Part shown: positions 1,771-15,165 of the stretch, in pieces
Layout: the number at the start of each line of letters is the position of its first letter
How positions within the stretch are numbered: the first letter of the stretch is position 1
Assembly (NCBI GenBank): GCA_947258795.1
Contig: CAMYJU010000004.1
Location: 62,001-126,000, forward strand
Source of the DNA: an uncultured Gammaproteobacteria bacterium
Lineage (GTDB): Bacteria; Pseudomonadota; Gammaproteobacteria; DRJJ01
Direction: 5' to 3'
Length of the DNA: 64,000 nt
Translations under genes and position numbers: made by a program
The notes under the pieces: generated by a model
What the model was told of the DNA's origin: nothing
Databases searched by the model: none
Seen by the model: the letters and a program-made list of their open reading frames with translations, nothing else

Positions 1771-1806
1771 AGAATGGGCGCACATTGTTGCGCCCGTTCT
1801 TTTTTG
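1771..1806 (+). terminator. Intrinsic terminator after prk
   Basis: A 12-bp stem (AGAATGGGCGCA, 1771-1782, with TGCGCCCGTTCT, 1789-1800, one G-T pair) closes a 6-nt loop and is followed by six T residues. It overlaps an upstream in-frame ATG of the next gene, which argues that the next gene really starts at 1854. Confidence 0.9.
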
Positions 1807-1853
1807 AATTAAACTTAAGGTCTACAACTATTAAAGACCGCAAGAACCAGACC

Positions 1854-2984
1854 ATGGAAGACCAGCCCTTTCTGATTGCCTCAGCTTCCAATATGCATGC
1901 CTCCGAACTGGTAGGCGCCTGTATTGGAAAACTGGGTGAACTGGACACCAGTATCAATATCGGCTTTGCTTACGCAACCGATATCCTGGCAGACGACTTT
2001 GCCACCATCATTCGGCAATTACAGGAACAAACAGGAATCAATAACTGGCTGGGAACCATCGGTACCGGCATCTGTGCCGGCAGCCAGGAACTGTATGATC
2101 ATCCGGCCCTGTGTATTATGCTCGGCAGCTTTCCGGAAGACAGCTACCGCTTCTTTCGCCTGGGCGATACTGATCTGCAGGATTTCACTTCCGGCCATGC
2201 CGACTGGCTGAATGCCAACCAGTATCATATCGCCGTGATGCATGGTGACCCTCGTGCCCAGACGGTCAGTGACCAGATACCGGATTTTGTTGATACCGTA
2301 CCACAGAGTTTCGTGGTGGGCGGTCTGACCTCCTCACAATCCGACTCATACCCGCAATACGCCAATGGTATGCATGAGCATGGTATCTCCGGTGTGGTAT
2401 TCAACCAGCAGGTGCCGGTAGCCACGACACTGAGCCAGGCCTGTAGTCCGATAGGCTCGGTCCACTCGGTCAGCAAGGCCAAACATAATGTGGTCATGGC
2501 GCTGGACTCAAGACCGGCACTGGACGTTTTCAGGGAGGATATAGGTGAAGTCCTGGCGCGTGACCTGAGCCGCGTCGGTGGTTATATCTATGTCGGCCTG
2601 CCGGTACAGGGCTCGGATACCGGCGACTATCTGGTACGAAACCTGATCGGTCTGGACCCGGTGAACAAACACGTGGTGATCGGTGACTGGGTGGAAGACG
2701 GCCAGAAACTGATGTTTTGTCGACGTGATGGCGCCAGCGCCCGTTCGGACCTGCGTCTGCACCTGGACAAGCTGAAACACCGTGTTGGAGACAACCCCAT
2801 CAGGGGAGGACTGTATTTCTCCTGCCTTGGCCGTGGCCGCTACCTGTTTGGCGATGAATCACAGGAACTAAAACTGATCCATGAGATCCTGGGTGAATTT
2901 CCACTGTGTGGTTTCTTCGCCAATGGTGAAATTGCCAATAGCCAGCTTTATGGCTATACCGGGGTGCTGACCCTGTTTTTGTGA
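1854..2984 (+). CDS. FIST N/C domain sensor protein
   Basis: 376-residue soluble protein with the FIST_N and FIST_C arrangement. The N-terminal half contains an alanine/glycine-rich sensor fold with the GTGICAG segment. The C-terminal half carries the typical CLGRGRYLFG and PLCGFFANGEI motifs. FIST proteins are thought to bind small ligands and often sit beside signalling genes; the ligand here is unknown. I chose the ATG at 1854 (MEDQPF...) because the earlier in-frame ATG at 1785 lies inside the prk terminator. It converges on the cNMP-binding/rhodanese gene with a 15-base gap. The domain call is confident; the role is inferred only as sensing. Confidence 0.82.
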   Translation: MEDQPFLIASASNMHASELVGACIGKLGELDTSINIGFAYATDILADDFATIIRQLQEQTGINNWLGTIGTGICAGSQELYDHPALCIMLGSFPEDSYRFFRLGDTDLQDFTSGHADWLNANQYHIAVMHGDPRAQTVSDQIPDFVDTVPQSFVVGGLTSSQSDSYPQYANGMHEHGISGVVFNQQVPVATTLSQACSPIGSVHSVSKAKHNVVMALDSRPALDVFREDIGEVLARDLSRVGGYIYVGLPVQGSDTGDYLVRNLIGLDPVNKHVVIGDWVEDGQKLMFCRRDGASARSDLRLHLDKLKHRVGDNPIRGGLYFSCLGRGRYLFGDESQELKLIHEILGEFPLCGFFANGEIANSQLYGYTGVLTLFL

Positions 2985-2999
2985 TACCTGGTTGTCGTA

Positions 3000-4070
3000 T
3001 CAGGCCACTTCCGAGCCAAGCTGGGCACGCAGTACAGCCGGTAAAACCTGTAGTCCGCCTTTCAGTACACTGACCTCGTATCCGGCCTGACCAAGCAAAA
3101 AGGCAGCCGCCGAACTACGTGAACCCGTCATGCAGTAACAAATATAGTGCATATCCTGGTCCAGCCTGTTCATGCCCTCGCGTAAATCATTCAGTGGCAA
3201 ATTGATTGCGTTGGGTAAACGGTAGTGCTCAAACTCCTTCTCCGATCTGACATCCAGCCAGACAGCACCCTTGTTAACCCGCCCTCTTGCACTGTTTGCA
3301 TCCAGCCTCTGCAGTAACGGTTCCTGCAACAGTTCCCTGAAATCCTGCTTGGACAGTCGCAATACACTACCGTCTTCACGCATGACTACCGTTGCATTTC
3401 GAGGGTTGCCACTAATCAACGCCTCTTCGCCAAAACTTTCACCAGGCTGTAATACAGCCAGCTCGCGGTCACGGCTGACACTGGCAGTACCTGTTTCAAT
3501 AAAATAGAAATAGTCGCCCGGCTCACCTATATTGATCAGCCGGTCACCTGCACGAACCTGTAGATGTTCCAGACGTTGTTTTAACTGCTCGATATTGGTA
3601 GCAGGGATTTTCCTCAGTATCGGGGATTCAATGATACGCTTCATCAGGCTGGAATGCTCAGGACCCGCGGCCTGGTCCGGGGTATCCAGGTCACCGACCT
3701 GCGCGGAAAGCTGGTCCCAGGTCAGCATATAGTCCAGCACGGTATTATCCACTACCAGCACTACTGATTCCTGCTCAACCACGGCGTTATAGTGATGAGG
3801 CTGATGGCCATCCAGCGCATGCCTGGAAAGGGAGGTCTGTGCAGTGATCGCCATACCTGACGGATCCGTATCACAGGTCAGGCGAATACGGCCGCCGACT
3901 AACCAGGCAGACTGGTGATCCGCCTCTCCCTGGCTGAATACGGTTCCGCCGGGTACATAGTGCACAATACTGGCCAGACTGCTGAGCTCTTCAAGGGTTT
4001 CGTCCGGTAAACTGTCGAGCGGTACGAAGGATTTTAATTGTTTGATCGTCGGTCCTGCGGTGTTGCTCAT
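3000..4070 (-). CDS. Cyclic-nucleotide-binding-like / rhodanese fusion protein
   Basis: 356-residue cytoplasmic protein. A degenerate first cNMP-binding-like module occupies about residues 10-130. A better second module at about 150-245 has the phosphate-binding-cassette-like stretch FGEEALISGNPRNATV. A rhodanese domain at about 260-345 has its active-site cysteine in CYCMTGSRS (near 310). There is no DNA-binding domain, so it is not a Crp-type regulator. The ATG at 4070 is chosen because GGGAGGGATT lies just before it; in-frame starts up to 4112 lack this. Domain order and many motifs match the first 350 residues of the giant protein at 9748-15165, so the two are paralogues. A redox or sulfur-linked signalling role is inference. 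Confidence 0.85.
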   Translation of the reverse strand: MSNTAGPTIKQLKSFVPLDSLPDETLEELSSLASIVHYVPGGTVFSQGEADHQSAWLVGGRIRLTCDTDPSGMAITAQTSLSRHALDGHQPHHYNAVVEQESVVLVVDNTVLDYMLTWDQLSAQVGDLDTPDQAAGPEHSSLMKRIIESPILRKIPATNIEQLKQRLEHLQVRAGDRLINIGEPGDYFYFIETGTASVSRDRELAVLQPGESFGEEALISGNPRNATVVMREDGSVLRLSKQDFRELLQEPLLQRLDANSARGRVNKGAVWLDVRSEKEFEHYRLPNAINLPLNDLREGMNRLDQDMHYICYCMTGSRSSAAAFLLGQAGYEVSVLKGGLQVLPAVLRAQLGSEVA

Positions 4071-4224
4071 CGGAATCCCTCCCATCTTATTTTTCATCAG
4101 ATTCAACGGCATAGCGTTGCTTATCTGCCAACCGCCTGTTGTTTATCGGCAACTACCTGTTTTACTTAAGTTCTGAGCGGCTTTTTTCTGCATCACATAG
4201 CTGTTTATCGCAGTTTGGCAAATC

Positions 4225-5414: not shown

Positions 5415-5756
5415 TCATTTGCTGCGATAGATGTAATTGGGCTGGATATGTCGTAACTTGTCTGAGCCGGCCACCAGTGCCTGCAACCGATCCAGTCCCG
5501 GGTCCCGGCTCAGGGTAATTTGGTAGAGCGTAGTATCCAGCCGTTTGATACCGGTCGGTTCGAAGCGCGAAAACAACTGCGCGATATCCTGTTCCGGATA
5601 GCCTGCTGTTGTCGTCACCAGGTAGACCGATGTCACCCTGTTTTCAGATACAGGCTGTTCAAATGCCTGTTCTTCAGGTCGCCTGTCATAACACCCTGCC
5701 AGAAACAGCGCAACGATCAGCACCAGCCATAAACCAGGTCCAGCGCGCCGACTCAT
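5415..5756 (-). CDS. Small lipoprotein resembling a subtilase propeptide
   Basis: 113 residues. A signal peptide ends in lipobox LAGC (cysteine near residue 22), so the product should be an exported lipoprotein. The mature part ends in LRHIQPNYIYRS, nearly the same as the end of the propeptide of the neighbouring subtilase (IRHVQPNYIYRS). At DNA level 20 bases are identical (5422-5441 and 7159-7178). This suggests a stand-alone I9/propeptide-like domain that arose by duplication and could act in trans as a protease chaperone or inhibitor; that role is inference. The ATG overlaps the subtilase stop (ATGA, 5753-5756), so translation is coupled. Confidence 0.75.
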   Translation of the reverse strand: MSRRAGPGLWLVLIVALFLAGCYDRRPEEQAFEQPVSENRVTSVYLVTTTAGYPEQDIAQLFSRFEPTGIKRLDTTLYQITLSRDPGLDRLQALVAGSDKLRHIQPNYIYRSK

Positions 5757-7532
5757 GGCACCTCCACCGCGCGAACGCCGCTTGGTGGCCTGATGTGCAC
5801 CAGGCTACCGGCCGCATTGACTACCTTGCCAGTCCCCGTTAACGGTGCCAGGGACGCAACCGATTCGCCACCAGACCTGATCGCACTGGCCGTATCCACG
5901 GCCGTATAGGATGGGTTCATCGCCCGTAACAGGGCCGCCACCCCGCTGACATGAGGGGCAGACATGGACGTACCGTTTAACAGGCGCACGATATTCCCAC
6001 CCGGCTGCAGGGTCTGGATTTCAAACTGCGGAATACCCACGCCCTCATTACCGGCATCATTATTGTCTGTCTGCAGTCGTACACCGATACTGCAGGTTGC
6101 AGTCAGGCAGTTATTGATAGCCAGTTCCCAGGTATTGGTCATATTCCGGTACTGCGACCCGCTCTCTCTGAGTGTCTGTACATCATTGACCCCGTCAAAC
6201 GGATCACCGCCGGATGCATCGCTATTCAGCGTAAAAAAGTCGGCATTCATCTCGGTGTCGACAAACGCGGTCATCAGGATAGTTGCCGCGCTGGCTGTAC
6301 TCAGGTCATACGACGTCGATGCCTGATCGTCCAGGCTGGAGGCATAGGTTGGAAACGGCGGGTTAGGGTTCGCGCACCAGTCTGCCGGATTGACCAGGGT
6401 ATCGGTATTGGTAATCACACAGGCAGCGGCACGCGTCCAGCCACCACCCAGGGTCCAGCTGGAAAAATCGTCGCGGATAAACATGCCTGCCCAGGCGCTG
6501 AGTATATTGGTGCCGGGTGCGGCAATATCGACGCTGGTCGCGCCGTAGTTCGCAAAAAAAGCGCGATTGAATGCCTGGTCGATCGCCGTCACACACAACA
6601 GGTTGTCCTGGGTAAACGCGCATGGGTACTCCTTGTTGTTCACCGTTGTCGGCCGCAAAACGAACCGCGTCCCTGATCGTCAGGGTGGTTCCAGCGCCGG
6701 TCGCATCCAGCGCCCTGAGCGCCATCAGCTGAACCTGCCAGCAGACGCCGGTGGTACCCAAACCGTTGTTTCCGACTGCACCGATCGTGGCCGCGACATG
6801 GCTGCCATGATGCTCGCCACCACCTGCCGGGGCCGGATCGTTATCAACCACCGTATTGCCGGTGTTGAAATCGATGACGTCTACTCCGACAAAGTCGCGG
6901 CCATGATTTGGAAAACCGGCGCCGCTGCCGTCCCACATATTGGCAGACAGATCCTGATGGGTATATTCGATACCGGTATCGACCACGGCCACGATAACCG
7001 CGCTGCAATCGTTAATATGATCCCAGGCCTCCACGGCATCGATATCCAGACCGGCTACACCCGGGTTACTACTGCTATAGATTGACGGGTTGATCAGTTG
7101 CCCGGTATTCTGTAATCCCCACTGCTGGTCAAACCGGCTGTCATCAGGCAGTAGCGTACTGCGATAGATGTAATTGGGTTGTACATGCCTGATATCCGGA
7201 TCCTTGCGATAAAACTGACTGGCCTGCTCCAGCGACATGTCGTCCGGTATCAACACAGTCGCGATTTCACCCAAACGATTCTTCCGGCTCAGGCGTGCAC
7301 CCGCTAGTGATGAAAGCTTGCGTTCACGCTGTAGCGGTGCCAGTCCGTCCCGAAACTGGATCAACAACTCGTTGGCGATATAGGCAGGCCGTGTCCCGTC
7401 AGATAACGATAATCCGGATTTCGGTGACGAATGTGTACCAGACAGGGCGTTAGCTGCCGTAAACATTAGCACCAACACACCTGTCAGCAAGCTGAACGGT
7501 CTCGACCCAAACATGTGCGTTAACTGTTTCAT
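5753..7532 (-). pseudogene. Secreted S8 subtilase gene, disrupted by internal deletion and frameshift
   Basis: The coding sequence begins at ATG 7532 with a signal peptide, then a propeptide ending in QPNYIYRS (near residue 125), then the Asp motif (VAVVDTGIEYTH, near residue 184) and the His motif (HHGSHVAATIGAVG, near 245). Frame is lost near 6640-6658. The other frame continues from EYPCAFTQDN through YGATSVDIAAPGTNIL and the Ser motif (NGTSMSAPH) to the stop at 5753. In related proteases about 35-40 residues lie between these parts, including the block with the oxyanion-hole Asn (AAGN-type motif); they are absent here. A single deletion of a length not divisible by three explains both the missing block and the frame change. 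Triad residues survive but are split across two frames. Assembly error cannot be excluded. Confidence 0.85.
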
Positions 7533-8237: not shown

Positions 8238-8471
8238 ATGATCAAGATTTTTGATATGGTAAATGGCGTATTCGAAACACCGGGAAAACCCGATTATCCC
8301 GTAACGCCCCCTGTCGGGCAGCGTGACCTTGAACCTGGGCATCGCTATCAACCTGAGGACCTGTTACCACAATTACAGGAAGTGCCCGGCAGTGAAACAG
8401 ACCGGCCTCAACCGGAACTACCGCCCGACCTGATCGATATCTCAATCGACAGCTTTATTCGACGCCAGTAA
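8238..8471 (+). CDS. Small proline-rich conserved hypothetical protein
   Basis: 77 residues, not recognised. It begins MIKIFDMVNGVFETPGKPDY and is rich in Pro, Glu and Asp with no signal peptide or membrane segment; the C-terminus (DLIDISIDSFIRRQ) is amphipathic. The ATG at 8238 is supported by GGAG eight bases upstream; an in-frame ATG at 8214 has no such site. Its last 17 bases overlap the end of the convergent Rieske gene. Confidence 0.6.
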   Translation: MIKIFDMVNGVFETPGKPDYPVTPPVGQRDLEPGHRYQPEDLLPQLQEVPGSETDRPQPELPPDLIDISIDSFIRRQ

Positions 8472-8835
8472 TTCTGTCGCCATCCGGCAGACGATAGGCC
8501 TGTTCAGGCAGGTAAATCATCCGCCCCCGCATAACAACCTCGACCGCGGTCAATTGCTGACCGACGCAGGGCCCACTCAGACAGATCCCGTCACCGATCC
8601 GGAAACGTGCATCATGCGTAGCACATTGTATGGTTTGCCTGTCCAGATCCAGGAACTGATGTGGCAACCAGTCCAGTGGTCCACCGGTATGCGGACAGCT
8701 GTTCAGATAAGCGTAGATCCGCTCTCCCTGTCGGACCAGAAATATCTCGGCGGGTCCTCGCGGCCCCTGTACCTGAAAACCACGAGTACCGGGATCTTCC
8801 AGTTCATCCAGCTGACATAACAGACCTTCACTCAT
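8455..8835 (-). CDS. Rieske [2Fe-2S] domain protein
   Basis: 126-residue stand-alone Rieske ferredoxin-like protein. The two cluster-binding motifs are CPHTGGPLDW (near residue 48) and CATHDARF (near residue 72). They hold a Cys-His pair each, although the second is CATH rather than the common CPWH type. There is no membrane anchor or signal peptide, so it is a soluble cytoplasmic electron carrier or a ferredoxin component of an oxygenase; no oxygenase is nearby. The ATG at 8835 overlaps the stop of the ketohexokinase-like gene (ATGA), so the two are translated together. The partner is unknown. Confidence 0.88.
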   Translation of the reverse strand: MSEGLLCQLDELEDPGTRGFQVQGPRGPAEIFLVRQGERIYAYLNSCPHTGGPLDWLPHQFLDLDRQTIQCATHDARFRIGDGICLSGPCVGQQLTAVEVVMRGRMIYLPEQAYRLPDGDRITGVE

Positions 8836-9695
8836 GACTGCGTAACGATTTCTTGCCGGGCACATTTTTCTCCCGCCATTTTGCAGGCTTGTTCCAGCGC
8901 GTTCTGCAAGGACCGGCTTTTCAGCATCGCGTTGATGAATGCCGCATTAAACACATCTCCTGCACCCAGCGTATCTACCACCCTGCCCGGTACCCAGGCC
9001 GGGGAGTAATATAGTTTTCCTTGCCGGTCACAGGCCCAGGCGCCCTGTTCGGCATCACTGCAGACCTGGATCGCATGATCATCCTGCTGATGCCGGGATT
9101 TCAGCCATTGTTCACCCGGTGTGGCTGACTGTGAGCGCACGAAGGTACCTGAATATAAAACCAGATTGGCATACGGCAGGAGTGTTTCTATCCCTGGCCG
9201 TGGCTTTTCGAGTTCAAGCGATATAACGGTTGCCGGACAGTTTTCCCGTACATGAGCCATCATCTCCCGGGTCTGGTCTATGTTGCGCCCTTCAAAGTGC
9301 AGCCAGTCGAAGCCATCTAGATCCATGCCTGTCAGTGCCGATGCCGGCAACTCGGGCAGGTCTCGATAATGAACGATGGTGCGGCTGGCACTATCGGCCG
9401 CAACCAGTACGCAGGACACCGGAGACCGGCCCGACATGCGTACACAGGGAGAAATATCGATATGATGATCCTGAAGTGCCTGACAAATCAGGTCTGACTC
9501 GTGGTCTCTGGCCAGCACAGCGGCAAGGGCAACCTGATGACCGAGATCTGAAAGCACCATTAGGGTATTACTGGCATTGCCACCACAACTCATACGCCGG
9601 GCATTCGCCCGCACCTCCTGATCCGGTTCAGGATAGTGTTCCACATAGTTAATGATATCCAGTGTGGCAACACCCACACCCAGTATCCTGGCCAT
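8832..9695 (-). CDS. PfkB-family sugar kinase, ketohexokinase-like
   Basis: 287 residues from the ATG at 9695. It has the ribokinase/PfkB fold with GGNASN near residue 37, HFEGRN (near 135), LEKPR (near 160) and the anion-hole/catalytic signature VVDTLGAGDVFNA near residue 240, whose Asp is the catalytic base of this family. The specific run of motifs, including AGEKC near the end, resembles animal ketohexokinase more than bacterial ribokinase. ATP-dependent phosphorylation of a ketose such as fructose is therefore likely, but the substrate is inferred. The track-length frame extends to 9854 but would overlap the giant gene; the start at 9695 follows that gene by 52 bases. It is coupled to the Rieske gene. 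Confidence 0.85.
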   Translation of the reverse strand: MARILGVGVATLDIINYVEHYPEPDQEVRANARRMSCGGNASNTLMVLSDLGHQVALAAVLARDHESDLICQALQDHHIDISPCVRMSGRSPVSCVLVAADSASRTIVHYRDLPELPASALTGMDLDGFDWLHFEGRNIDQTREMMAHVRENCPATVISLELEKPRPGIETLLPYANLVLYSGTFVRSQSATPGEQWLKSRHQQDDHAIQVCSDAEQGAWACDRQGKLYYSPAWVPGRVVDTLGAGDVFNAAFINAMLKSRSLQNALEQACKMAGEKCARQEIVTQS

Positions 9696-9747: not shown

Positions 9748-12700
9748 TTATCTGACCCTGACAACCCGGAAACCGACATCCACCCCGGTATCGGCCGCGT
9801 AGGCCTCGCGCTTCCTGGAGCGAACATTATCCGCGGTGCTACGGTATGAGCCACCCCTGACTACACGGCGTTCACAACCGGCAGCCTGCACCGCCGTTCC
9901 ATTGCTCGGAGCACCCTGGTAACTATCCTGGTAACAATCCTGCACCCATTCCGGCACATTACCGGCCATGTCATACAGGCCCAGGCTGTTGGGTTTGAAC
10001 TGACCCACCGGAGCGGTTGAGCGACCATCCCATTTGCTGCCACAATCAAAGCAATTGGCCTTGTTCTTGTCCTTGCTAACCCCCCATGGATAAGGTGTGG
10101 TGGTACCACCACGGGCCGCGTACTCCCACTCGGCCTCGGTTGGCAGACGATACTTGTGCCCGGTCTGTTTTGATAACCACTTGGAGTAGGCCACTGCATC
10201 ATTCCATGAAACATTAATTACCGGCAGCTTGCCACGTGCCCAACCGTTATCGTCCGGTTTCCTGCGCCCGGTCGCGGTCGCAAAGCGGTCGTAATCCTCA
10301 AAGGTCACTTCGTATTTACTGATCGAGAAGCTGCCCAGCTTGACCTGGCGCGGCGGCCGTTCGTCGAAATTGGTTGAACTTTCCGCGCTACCCATCATGA
10401 ACCGGCCACCCGGCAGTTCCACCATAACCGGCCCTGCGCCACCGTCTTCCAGGAAATCGCGATAGGTCCGTCGTGCCTTCAGCAGTGCGGGCTTCTTGTC
10501 TGCGTCGGCCTTTTGCTTGACTGCTGGCTTGGTGTTCACCGGCTTGCGTAACGGTTGCGGGTCCTTGCGCACAGCTGCAGTCGCGGGTTTTTTCCCGACT
10601 ACAGGCTTGGCAGGTGTCGGTTTCTTACTGCTGACTGGCGCCGGCTTGCTCGTTGCCTTGTTCTGCGCAGCCGGCTTTTCCAGTTTTCTGACAGACAGCT
10701 TGCCGGAATCATCCTCAACGATCTCCACCGCCGTATCCTTTTCCTGTGGCTGTTCCTGTCCGGCCGGCTTCAACACAAACCACCAGTACGCACCTGCACC
10801 AGCCAGCGCGATGATCAGTAACAGCAGAATGAGCCCTGTTTTCCTGCTACGCGGCGGTTTACCGATGAACATGGAGTCATCCACATCGCTCATGCCGAAT
10901 ATATCGTTGGCCTCCTGCGTAGACCGGGGTTTGCTCTGTGTAGTTGGTGGGATGGCCGCCGTCGGATCCGGTGCGCGCACCTCGGCCGGGCGTATCGGTT
11001 GCGGCTGACCCGCCGGCTCGATCTGTTCCTGTTGATAGATATTTTCAATTTCTGTCTGTGCGTTACTGGAAGACACCGCCTGCGCGGCAGTTGATGCCAA
11101 TGAGGGTTGTTGACGCTGCTCACGCCTGAGTTCTTCCAGGTCGGTCTTGTAACCGGATTGCTGCTCCAGTTGCTGGCGTGCCATATACAGCTCAGACTCC
11201 AATTCGGCCACTCGGGATTCGGCCTTCTGCATGGATTCATGCAGGGATTCCATGCGGTCCAGCGACTGCGACTTGGCCGCCTCCAGCGCATCGATGTTTT
11301 CCTGCATGGCCTCCATACTTTGCTGAATAATCTCGTTATCAGACTCGCTGGATTGCAGTGCAGTGATCTGGCTGCGTTTGCTTTCCAGTTCCTTGTCCAG
11401 TTCCTGCAACTGACGTAGCTGCTCATCCGACTGTGATGATACCTTGACCAGCTCCCGTTCAAGTTCCCGGTTAACTTTTTCCTGCTCGGCCAGTTTCTTT
11501 TCCAGTTCCTGACCGGCCACTTCCCGGCTCTGCATGGCCTGCTCATGCGCATCCTGTTCGGACTTGCTTTGCTCCATGCGCCGTTCCAGACCATCAAATT
11601 CCAGCTGTAGTGTATCCAGCCTTTCCTGCAATTCCTGCCGGGACGCCTCGGCGTCTGACTTTTCCTTGATCAACTGTTGTGACAGCTCATCACGCTGGGC
11701 CTGCATCGAGCCCAACTGCAGCGTGATCTCCTCACGTTTGCCTTCCATGGACTCCAGCTGTTGCTCGTAGCGTTCCAGCTGTGTCCGGGTATCCTGCATG
11801 TCTATCTCTGCAGTTTTTAGCTCGGATTCTTTTTCTGAGCTACGCTGCTTGAGCTCATCAAACTCCTGCTCGAGTTCTGTATACCTGCCCTCAAGCGTCT
11901 CTTTCGCTGATTGCAGTTCGGCCAGCTTGCGTTCATGCTGTTCGGCATCGGCAACGGACTGCTCGGAAACCTCTTTCAGCTCACTGACTTCCTTTAATGT
12001 TGCTTCACGCTGCTGTTCGGCGTATTGCTTTTCATCAGCCAGCCGTTCGGCATCGCGTTTCAGATGATTGATCTCTGATTCCAGGTCGGCCAGTTTCTTG
12101 AGGTCTGCCTCGCCACCCGAGGCCAGCTGCTCGCGCAGGCCCTCCAGTTCGGCTTCCAGTGCCTGCTTGTCCTTGGCCAGTGCATCCCGTTCGCGCAGGA
12201 TCTCACTGTTATCATGCTCGCCGGGCTGCACACCGCCGGCTTCATTTATGACCGAGTCATAGCGCTTGCGCAGGGTTTTCAGTTCCTGTTCTACCGCCGT
12301 GCGCAGATCGACTGCGGCATCGCGCTCACCACGCATTGCACGGAACTTGCTCTCCAGGGTTTTCAGCTCTGCGACCACGCCATCGTGGTCTTCCTGCATC
12401 CGTGAAACCTGGCGTTCATGCGACGCCGCGGTGTCTGCCAGCTTGGTTTCCAGTCCGTTTTTAGCCTCATCCACCTCTGCACGTAGCTGGTTTAGCGCCT
12501 GCTCATGTTGTGACTCGGCTTCGGTCAGCCTGGCCTGATACTGCATCACCTCGGTACGCGCCTGATTCAGCGAACGTCGCTCGTCGTCCAATTGCGTTTT
12601 CAGGGTTTGCAAGGACTGTTTGCCGGCCTCCAGTTCCTGGGTCTGGCTCTGTTGTAACTGTTTGCTGGCCTCCAGCTCCCGGGCCTGGTTGTTGAAATTC

Positions 12701-15165
12701 TGTAGCTGGGCATGCAGGTCAGCTTCCATGCCAGACAAACGCTGTTCCAGCTCGGCGGACTGTGCCGCGATCAGGTCTTTCTCGGCGGTAACCGTAGTCA
12801 GTACCGATTCGCTATGCTGGGAGGTTTTCTCCAGTTCCTGTTTCAGGTTGTCCTTGTCCTGCTCGAGCCTGTTGATTGTGCCTTTCAGCTCCTGCGACTG
12901 TTTATCAGAGCCCTGTAACTTTTCCCTGAGAGTTGATATCTCGTTCTGATAACTTTCCTGGCTATCCGTTTTATCACTGCGCAAGGCCTCCAGATCACTT
13001 TGCAGGCCGGCGACCTGTTTACTGGCATCGGCCAGACTGCTACGCAGTTGCTCGGATTCATTGCCCGCCTCTGCATGACTGGCATTCGCCTGGTCGAGTT
13101 CTGACTGCAAGGCCTGCTTTTCAGCACCCAGCGCATCAAGCTGCTGCTGCAGCTCGCCGGCCTGCTGGCCCAGCGTCGACAGCTCCTGGTTGACCGATTC
13201 CAGTACCGCCTTGTGTTCCTGTTCGGCAGCCTGCTGATCGCGGCTGGCGGCCGAATGCTGCTCGCGCGCCTGCTCCAGCTGCGCACGTAAATCGTCCAGT
13301 TCTTTCTGGTCACCCTCGACCCTGGACTGCAGTTGTTCCTTCTCTTTTTGCAGCGACTCAAATTGCTGCTGGGTCTCACCCAGGTTTGCATCCGTTTTGC
13401 TGCGTATGTCTTCCAGCTGATTCAGCAGTTTATCCCTTTCCTGCTGGTAGGCATTCATATCATCCTGCAGTTTTTGTTCTTTGTTTCTGGATGCGGCAAG
13501 CTCTACGCTCAGTTTTTCGTATTCCGACTGCAGAGCGTTCTTGGTACTCTCCCCGGATGCACGGGCAATATCCAGCTCTTTCTTGACTGACGCCAGTTCG
13601 TTTTCGAGACTGGCGAGTTTCTCCTCACCTGCCTTGCGCTGTTTACGCTGAAGTTCCAGATCGTCGCGCAAATGCACCGATTCTTTCTCGACACCTTGCT
13701 GCGCATTCTGCAGCTCTTCGAGCTGCGCCGCATACATATCTTCCTGTTTGGCCAGTTTTGCCGACAGTTCTTCCTTTTCCTTCAGCGCTGCACTCAGCTC
13801 GCTGCTTTTATCGTTAATACGGCTGGTCAGTCGTTCCAACTCCGCCCTGAGTTCATCACTGGCCTCACTGCGCTGTTGTTGCGATTGCATGCTTTCTTCA
13901 AGTGCCGCATCCAGCTCGGCCTTTCTGTTTGCCAGCTCAGCCTCGATACTCTGTAGCTGCTGTTCTTTTTGCAGCAGGGCCTGTTCTCTGGCCTTTAACT
14001 GCTCATCCACATCCTTCAGAACCGCCGGTTCCTGCTCGTTTTGCTGACGCTGCTTGTTAAAGTCTATGATGTCTGCACTGGCGTCATCTTCGGATTTTTC
14101 ATCCGTAACCAGATCTTCATGGGGAACTTCGGCGATTCCATCTTTCAGAACATAAGTATGGATACCATAATGTCCCAGCAGGAAGGCGGCACTGGCGCTG
14201 CGACGACCTGTATCACAATAAACGATGTAATTGACATCCGGGTCCAGACTCTCTGCCTCGACACGTAACGCAGCCAGTGGGATATTAATAGAATCCGGCA
14301 GATGCGCGTTTTCAAATTCGCCCGGCAGTCGTACATCCAGCCAGCGGTCACCCGACCCGATCTTCTCCCTGGCATTCCCGTATTCAAGGTGATTGACCAG
14401 AGGCTCTTTCAGTAGCTCGTCAAAATCCTCTTTTGACAAACGCATGATTTCACCATCTGAAGCCATGGTAATGGAGGCATTGCGCTTGCCACCAGAAAGC
14501 AGCGCCTCTTCACCAAAGCTGTCACCGGACTGCAGTTCAGCGAGTTTTACCTCGCGCGCGTTACTGGAGGGTTTGCGTGTTACAATCGCACTACCTTGCT
14601 TGATGATGTAAAAATAGTCGCCTTCATCATCCTGGTTCACAATAGTGGTGCCCGCAGTAACCTCGATGTTCTCCATACGCATGATTAACTGCTGGATATT
14701 CAACGCAGGCAGACGCAACAACAACTCTGATTGCAGCATCTTGGCCATCCAGTCATCGTGGATCTCGCTGTCAGTGTCGATTTCGCTGACTTCGATTTCG
14801 CCGCTCTGGTCCCAGGTCAGCATCACATCGAGCAGACCGGAATCGATATGCAGTATGGTTACGGGGGTCTTGCTTTTGGCAGTAAACTGGCGCGGCTGTT
14901 GTGGCGCCAGGGGATGTATGGCCTCTTCGGTATTGCCATGCAGTTTCTGCTTGATGCTACGTCCTACCATCAGGTGCACTTCACCGGACAGCACATAACA
15001 AGTCTGGTTGTCTCTTTCACCCTTCTTGAACAGCACCTTGCCGGCCGGCAATTGCTTGATAATGATCTTTTTGATTACTTCTTCAAAATGCGCGTCACTG
15101 AGGCCATTGAATGGCACCAGTTTACGAATCTGGTCTTTGGCAACGGTTTGTGGTGCTGCACCCAT
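9748..15165 (-). CDS. Giant coiled-coil membrane protein: cNMP-binding-like, rhodanese and FGE/sulfatase-modifying-factor domains
   Basis: 1805 residues. In order: degenerate cNMP-binding-like module (about 15-130); second cNMP-binding module (about 150-250, FGEEALLSGGKRNASI); rhodanese (about 268-345, active Cys in YCDTGRRS near 316); about 960 residues of almost unbroken coiled coil (385-1350) rich in Gln, Glu, Leu and Lys; a Pro/Thr linker; one transmembrane helix (about 1441-1464, after SRKTG); an Ala/Lys/Pro-rich spacer; and a C-terminal FGE-sulfatase domain (about 1578-1805) with RLPTEAEWEYAARGG, MAGNVPEWVQD and GFRVVRVR. The likely topology is cytoplasmic sensor and rod with a periplasmic FGE domain, giving a rod that could span long distances. 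AGGAG before the ATG at 15165 decides the start over 15225. The N-terminal 350 residues parallel the protein at 3000-4070. Whether the FGE domain is catalytic is unknown; the role is not known. Confidence 0.9.
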   Translation of the reverse strand: MGAAPQTVAKDQIRKLVPFNGLSDAHFEEVIKKIIIKQLPAGKVLFKKGERDNQTCYVLSGEVHLMVGRSIKQKLHGNTEEAIHPLAPQQPRQFTAKSKTPVTILHIDSGLLDVMLTWDQSGEIEVSEIDTDSEIHDDWMAKMLQSELLLRLPALNIQQLIMRMENIEVTAGTTIVNQDDEGDYFYIIKQGSAIVTRKPSSNAREVKLAELQSGDSFGEEALLSGGKRNASITMASDGEIMRLSKEDFDELLKEPLVNHLEYGNAREKIGSGDRWLDVRLPGEFENAHLPDSINIPLAALRVEAESLDPDVNYIVYCDTGRRSASAAFLLGHYGIHTYVLKDGIAEVPHEDLVTDEKSEDDASADIIDFNKQRQQNEQEPAVLKDVDEQLKAREQALLQKEQQLQSIEAELANRKAELDAALEESMQSQQQRSEASDELRAELERLTSRINDKSSELSAALKEKEELSAKLAKQEDMYAAQLEELQNAQQGVEKESVHLRDDLELQRKQRKAGEEKLASLENELASVKKELDIARASGESTKNALQSEYEKLSVELAASRNKEQKLQDDMNAYQQERDKLLNQLEDIRSKTDANLGETQQQFESLQKEKEQLQSRVEGDQKELDDLRAQLEQAREQHSAASRDQQAAEQEHKAVLESVNQELSTLGQQAGELQQQLDALGAEKQALQSELDQANASHAEAGNESEQLRSSLADASKQVAGLQSDLEALRSDKTDSQESYQNEISTLREKLQGSDKQSQELKGTINRLEQDKDNLKQELEKTSQHSESVLTTVTAEKDLIAAQSAELEQRLSGMEADLHAQLQNFNNQARELEASKQLQQSQTQELEAGKQSLQTLKTQLDDERRSLNQARTEVMQYQARLTEAESQHEQALNQLRAEVDEAKNGLETKLADTAASHERQVSRMQEDHDGVVAELKTLESKFRAMRGERDAAVDLRTAVEQELKTLRKRYDSVINEAGGVQPGEHDNSEILRERDALAKDKQALEAELEGLREQLASGGEADLKKLADLESEINHLKRDAERLADEKQYAEQQREATLKEVSELKEVSEQSVADAEQHERKLAELQSAKETLEGRYTELEQEFDELKQRSSEKESELKTAEIDMQDTRTQLERYEQQLESMEGKREEITLQLGSMQAQRDELSQQLIKEKSDAEASRQELQERLDTLQLEFDGLERRMEQSKSEQDAHEQAMQSREVAGQELEKKLAEQEKVNRELERELVKVSSQSDEQLRQLQELDKELESKRSQITALQSSESDNEIIQQSMEAMQENIDALEAAKSQSLDRMESLHESMQKAESRVAELESELYMARQQLEQQSGYKTDLEELRREQRQQPSLASTAAQAVSSSNAQTEIENIYQQEQIEPAGQPQPIRPAEVRAPDPTAAIPPTTQSKPRSTQEANDIFGMSDVDDSMFIGKPPRSRKTGLILLLLIIALAGAGAYWWFVLKPAGQEQPQEKDTAVEIVEDDSGKLSVRKLEKPAAQNKATSKPAPVSSKKPTPAKPVVGKKPATAAVRKDPQPLRKPVNTKPAVKQKADADKKPALLKARRTYRDFLEDGGAGPVMVELPGGRFMMGSAESSTNFDERPPRQVKLGSFSISKYEVTFEDYDRFATATGRRKPDDNGWARGKLPVINVSWNDAVAYSKWLSKQTGHKYRLPTEAEWEYAARGGTTTPYPWGVSKDKNKANCFDCGSKWDGRSTAPVGQFKPNSLGLYDMAGNVPEWVQDCYQDSYQGAPSNGTAVQAAGCERRVVRGGSYRSTADNVRSRKREAYAADTGVDVGFRVVRVR

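Follow-up and report, generated by a model that had tools for sequence, protein, structure and literature searches.

A gammaproteobacterial family of giant proteins that joins two cNMP-binding-fold domains and a rhodanese to an FGE-fold domain through a long coiled coil, a candidate membrane receptor

FGE/C-type-lectin (CLec) domains occur in receptor fusions of the types Ser/Thr kinase-TM-FGE, TIR-TM-FGE and nSTAND1-FGE, some of which are diversified by retroelements, and in such fusions they are regarded as putative sensors (PMC10907252, PMC7517822). Signalling from the periplasm to a kinase has experimental support in the TagR-PpkA-PppA threonine phosphorylation pathway of type VI secretion, where the periplasmic TagR acts on the kinase PpkA (PMC6082577, PMC10482370). 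Tandem cNMP domains are found in the PKA regulatory subunit and in PKG. Here we analysed a giant protein that joins such parts in one chain. Each of its domains and the receptor fusions of its FGE half are already known, and the version with a cNMP-cNMP-rhodanese head on a rod appears to be new. The original prediction knew of no described protein with the full order; likewise, none was found in the literature searched, mainly openly accessible papers, and that literature yielded no papers on the head family or the giants either. We estimate a probability of about 0.55 that the giant is a single-pass inner-membrane receptor/transducer, with a cNMP/sulfane-sulfur head inside and a lectin-fold sensor outside.

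The window is the whole stretch of DNA that was analysed, 64,000 nucleotides from an uncultured gammaproteobacterium. The giant gene (9748..15165, minus strand) runs uninterrupted from an ATG at 15165, with AGGAG directly 5′ of it, to a stop at 9748 and encodes 1805 aa; an alternative start at an upstream GTG would give 1825 aa. The order of its parts is cNMP - cNMP - rhodanese - coiled coil - TM helix - FGE-fold domain. Pfam matched cNMP_binding in two stretches (E 1.8e-25), rhodanese at residues 266-346 (E 9.6e-13) and FGE-sulfatase at residues 1579-1803 (E 1.9e-62). The original prediction of a single 1805-residue frame with this order, about 960 residues of coiled coil, one membrane helix and an intact rhodanese active Cys was borne out by the translation, Pfam, heptad periodicity, hydropathy and alignment, and the minus strand is added here. 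A relation to SMC/Rad50-type proteins was rejected, as those matches reflected coil composition and lay far under the cut-offs, and Pfam showed no ATPase domain. Rfam gave no match to a structured RNA in the window.

The head begins with a cNMP-binding-fold domain at about residues 12-126 (14788..15132, minus), recognised by Pfam and modelled by AF2 as a beta-roll with the same fold as the second domain (mean pLDDT 90.8). Its phosphate cassette is atypical and lacks the canonical Glu; P91 is invariant and R92 is 93% conserved. The second cNMP-binding domain (residues 168-253; 14407..14664, minus; Pfam and head alignment) carries the canonical cassette FGEEALLSGGKRNA, in which E219 and R228 are conserved in 99% and 100% of 69 heads. 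The rhodanese domain (residues 266-346; 14128..14370, minus; Pfam and alignment) has the active loop C317-DTGRRS, and C317 is conserved at 90-100% in each of the three groups counted. Judged by these residues, the head has the Glu and Arg cassette of a cyclic-nucleotide-binding regulator in its second domain only, and the fold and catalytic Cys in the active loop of a rhodanese. The best Foldseek matches to the head were the tandem cNMP domains of PKA and PKG (E ~1e-20). The whole-chain TM was only about 0.3, because the two cNMP domains are oriented differently from those of PKA/PKG. Class III cyclase-type domains are encoded in the genome of the giant, so a cyclic nucleotide could be available to the head.

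The coiled-coil rod spans approximately residues 386-1340 (11146..14010, minus). The 3.5-residue heptad periodicity exceeded that of shuffles in most windows between residues 386 and 1365, the sole proline between residues 381 and 1353 is P981, and the rod (386-1340) is rich in Glu, Gln, Leu and Ala. The median identity to relatives was 49% for the head, 18% for the coil and 57% for the FGE domain. The head-to-TM distance was 601-1301 residues in 25 of 26 relatives and 372 in the remaining one, and rod length differed 3.5-fold among relatives. The rod behaves as a spacer, since its length and sequence vary freely while both ends stay fixed. If straight, its 955 residues at 0.148 nm each would reach at most ~140 nm, which exceeds the width of the periplasm and is far below the length of a cell. 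The proposal of a “cell-scale scaffold or signal rod” therefore survives in part: the module swapping described below favours a signal rod, whereas a cell-scale scaffold is weak, given this reach and the unconstrained sequence and length of the rod.

A hydropathy scan found a single TM helix at residues 1446-1464 (10774..10830, minus). The basic stretch PPRSRK precedes it, which suggests an N-in/C-out topology by the positive-inside rule. A Pro/Lys/Ala-rich linker, predicted to be periplasmic, follows at residues 1465-1565 (10471..10773, minus), and the TM-to-FGE distance in relatives was 56-163 residues. The C-terminal FGE-sulfatase-family domain (residues 1579-1803; 9757..10431, minus) has a C-type-lectin fold according to Pfam, Foldseek and an AF2 model (pLDDT 94.5). 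At the catalytic positions of FGE (loop GGSxxC....C), S1776 replaces the first Cys and no Cys stands at the second, and the same holds across giants. The missing copper-binding active cysteines rule out a formylglycine-generating enzyme, and the earlier label “FGE-type” thus holds for the fold and not for a sulfatase-modifying activity. Four cysteines, C1705, C1708, C1744 and C1764, are invariant in giants and would suit disulfides in an oxidising compartment. Residues 1773-1797 vary among giants, a few fixed residues excepted; where proteins of the FGE/C-lectin fold are diversified by retroelements, this region makes up their variable ligand site. A retroelement-diversified receptor (DGR variable protein) was ruled out, since no reverse transcriptase (RVT_1) was matched in the genome of the giant. 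The periplasmic domain is probably of the receptor-type C-lectin fold.

The family was surveyed in an even sample of 274 Gammaproteobacteria genomes, in which proteins interrupted by contig ends were counted among the giants. The head was found in nearly half of them (127/274), mostly as a protein of ~355 aa, and the full giant in about a tenth (27/274). All 26 aligned full-length relatives, from ~20 families, matched the cNMP, rhodanese and FGE models. In a sister species of the same genus, the giant was 66% identical over the first 1311 residues (84% for the head) and 64% over the C-terminal part, and it was broken solely by contig ends. The same order in one frame in ~20 families, together with the 84% identical head of the sister species, rules out a recent fusion or an assembly chimera, and the gene can be regarded as single and unbroken, as originally claimed. 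These alignments indicate that the giant is an old gammaproteobacterial family and not peculiar to one genome.

A quick tree of 76 heads grouped them by architecture into an all-giant clade (n = 25), a stand-alone clade, heads with a rod without TM, and heads with a rod and TM followed by a disordered periplasmic tail. Seven giants fell outside the main giant clade in this tree, some deep forks of which are unsettled; this implies either repeated losses of the FGE domain or more than one joining event. The window also encodes a stand-alone cNMP-cNMP-rhodanese paralogue of 370 aa (3000..4112, minus), which is 42% identical to the giant’s head and belongs to the stand-alone clade. It adjoins a FIST-domain gene (window 1785-4112), and a FIST homologue of the same cluster adjoins a stand-alone head in genomes G001 and G055. 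At five loci (the L091/L212 sets), two head-rod genes without TM lie next to each other, several of them divergently. These paired genes group in a single clade, and their products could assemble into heteromeric rods.

The two neighbours named by the original prediction, a ketohexokinase-like kinase and a Rieske protein, were both confirmed by Pfam. The PfkB kinase (287 aa; 8832..9695, minus) matched human ketohexokinase with E 8e-54. Its start was corrected to 9695, 52 bases downstream of the giant’s stop, since this Met is where the alignment of every homologue begins. The small Rieske [2Fe-2S] protein (8455..8835, minus) has an intact CPH...CATH motif, and its start codon and the stop of the kinase gene overlap as ATGA. 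The kinase and/or the Rieske gene adjoins the giant in 22 of ~32 giants, and the two are fused in G055. Giant and kinase co-occurred, the kinase being present in 17/27 giant genomes and 58/247 others (p 5e-5). An obligate partnership was ruled out, since the pair also occurs without the giant and some giants lack the pair. The pair is a linked but separable unit, and its operon link to the giant may be loose. In a Thiogranum-type clade (eight loci), the giant adjoins an HU-like gene, a TerB gene and a GspA-GspB-subtilase group. In the window, an S8 subtilase lies in two overlapping frames at 5753-7532 (minus; 6363-7532 and 5753-6658). Its homologue in the sister species is intact with 645 aa (L064:3193-5130), and the split is a frameshift or a sequencing error.

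The nearest non-giant relatives of the FGE half are FGE domains behind a TM helix on other cytoplasmic modules. This FGE-TM module was joined to a Ser/Thr kinase at two loci, to a PP2C phosphatase at four, to nSTAND1 at one, and to TIR in the genome of the giant itself. The TIR-TM-FGE protein (697 aa; L097:9435-11528, minus, contig C8) shares this periplasmic fold and is likely to function as a receptor or in defence. In a Methylococcaceae MAG, three consecutive FGE-domain genes were found (L051:1953-10261), of which one is the nSTAND1 fusion. PP2C also lies between rhodanese and rod in two giants of one family, and in one of these (L121) the C-terminal FGE part lies in a separate frame. By its predicted parts, the giant has the architecture of the FGE/CLec receptor fusions, with a C-terminal FGE fold after a TM helix and an N-terminal cytoplasmic signalling domain.

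We propose that the periplasmic FGE-fold domain recognises a ligand or partner in the envelope, that binding would alter how the tethered rods cluster or where they lie, and that this change would gate the cytoplasmic head. The second cNMP domain may bind cAMP or cGMP, and the rhodanese may take up or read sulfane sulfur (persulfide). The rod would act as a spacer or tether that defines the reach and brings heads together as dimers. The kinase and the Rieske protein would belong to this pathway too, most likely serving as its outputs or as redox partners. Since kinases and phosphatases are found fused to this same receptor half, our best guess for the downstream output is Ser/Thr phosphorylation. 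A receptor is favoured because 26/26 relatives keep the cNMP, rhodanese and FGE domains with conserved ends and a free rod, because the canonical cNMP cassette is near-invariant and the rhodanese Cys is kept, and because the head fold matches the PKA/PKG tandem domains in a genome with class III cyclase-type domains. It is also favoured by the FGE-TM halves on kinase, PP2C, TIR and nSTAND1 and the PP2C in two giants, by the sensor role proposed for FGE/CLec domains (PMC10907252, PMC7517822), and by the frequent adjacency of kinase and/or Rieske gene. It is a more tentative idea, which we hold to be possible but rather doubtful, that the giants form an undescribed receptor class in which a lectin-fold sensor, via a rod of free length (up to ~1300 residues), controls a head that integrates cNMP and sulfane sulfur.

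The giant could alternatively be a structural tether or spatial scaffold, in which the rod keeps the head, or a complex attached to the head, away from a membrane site marked from the periplasm, and the cNMP and rhodanese folds act chiefly as surfaces for binding. A long rod, free in sequence yet always there, is present in nearly all members, and the periplasmic linker is flexible. One subfamily has head, rod and TM with a disordered tail in place of FGE, and another has head and rod without TM; since these keep head and rod without FGE or without TM, rod and head appear to be the older core. However, a tether would not need the near-invariant cassette Glu and Arg and the rhodanese Cys, the fusions with PP2C and kinases speak for signalling, and the rod varies 3.5-fold in length, so we consider a tether unlikely. 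The domain outside the membrane might instead be a leashed PvdO-like oxidoreductase, with a cytoplasmic part that does no more than regulate or anchor it. PvdO (5hha) was the nearest solved structure by sequence (E 4e-39) and by fold (Foldseek 3e-24), followed by FGEs, the Treponema variable protein 2y3c and PorK. The PvdO model was also the top NCBIfam match, but its 157 bits did not reach the cut-off of 500. The absent FGE cysteines speak against an enzyme, as do two other proteins of this fold, PorK, a structural part without enzymatic function, and 2y3c, a variable binding protein. The variable stretch 1773-1797 is also easier to reconcile with diverse ligands than with a single fixed reaction. 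We regard the enzyme as quite improbable.

The rhodanese head might also be a reverse-Dsr sulfurtransferase held at the membrane, passing persulfide into a Dsr/DsrC relay. The dsrA gene was detected in 21/27 giant genomes and in 71/247 others (Fisher p 9e-7), and by family in 15/18 with the giant and 44/150 others (p 1e-5). DsrC-like genes lie near the giant at three loci (L130:6246-6992, L126:14895-15251, L125:3897-4253), and at L130 two of them stand directly behind the Rieske gene. On the other side, dsrA was not detected in six giant genomes, one of them 81% complete, and in the giant’s own genome it lies on another contig, so the giant is not adjacent to dsr genes there. A weaker link of this sort to dsrA also exists for the kinase gene (p 1e-4), which means that the giant-dsrA association is confounded by lineage and in part explained by it. 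The giant was therefore rejected as a direct sulfur-pathway gene, the association being real in the sample and confounded by lineage, and we rate a sulfur-metabolism device as very unlikely. The link to sulfur oxidation is suggestive only. The original placement among sulfur-oxidising Gammaproteobacteria fits the dsrA distribution, with the same confounding by lineage.

If a receptor of the undescribed class exists, it would link envelope state, a second messenger and sulfur oxidation, and if the head reads both cNMP and sulfane sulfur, second-messenger signalling would be tied to sulfur handling at the envelope. Stand-alone heads, head-rod and head-rod-TM proteins, full giants, PP2C giants and FGE-TM modules on kinase, phosphatase and TIR form a set of natural experiments, and E219, R228 and C317 are residues whose change bears directly on the idea of signalling.

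The operon kinase resembles human ketohexokinase by sequence. The giant’s periplasmic domain shares the fold and the core motifs RLPTEAEWE, GNV.EW and GGS with the formylglycine-generating enzyme (SUMF1, 1y1e; 6s07) but has neither active cysteine. PvdO, its nearest solved relative, which acts in pyoverdine maturation, is a free periplasmic protein, whereas the giant’s domain is tethered and scores under the NCBIfam cut-off. Like the PKA regulatory subunit and PKG, the giant has two cNMP domains in tandem, but only the second has the canonical cassette, and they are joined to a rhodanese instead of a kinase. TagR, which we take to be an FGE-family protein, acts with PpkA and PppA in a pathway that couples periplasmic sensing to a kinase and a phosphatase across the inner membrane, as we propose here. 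Those are separate proteins, whereas the giant’s locus has no signalling kinase or T6SS gene; a T6SS is present elsewhere in its genome. The FGE/C-type-lectin receptor fusions share with the giant a C-terminal FGE-fold sensor, a TM helix and a cytoplasmic signalling part. The giant would not be hypermutated as the retroelement-diversified fusions are, its genome being without reverse transcriptase, and its cytoplasmic part differs from that of the fusions in being a cNMP-cNMP-rhodanese head on a 955-residue coil.
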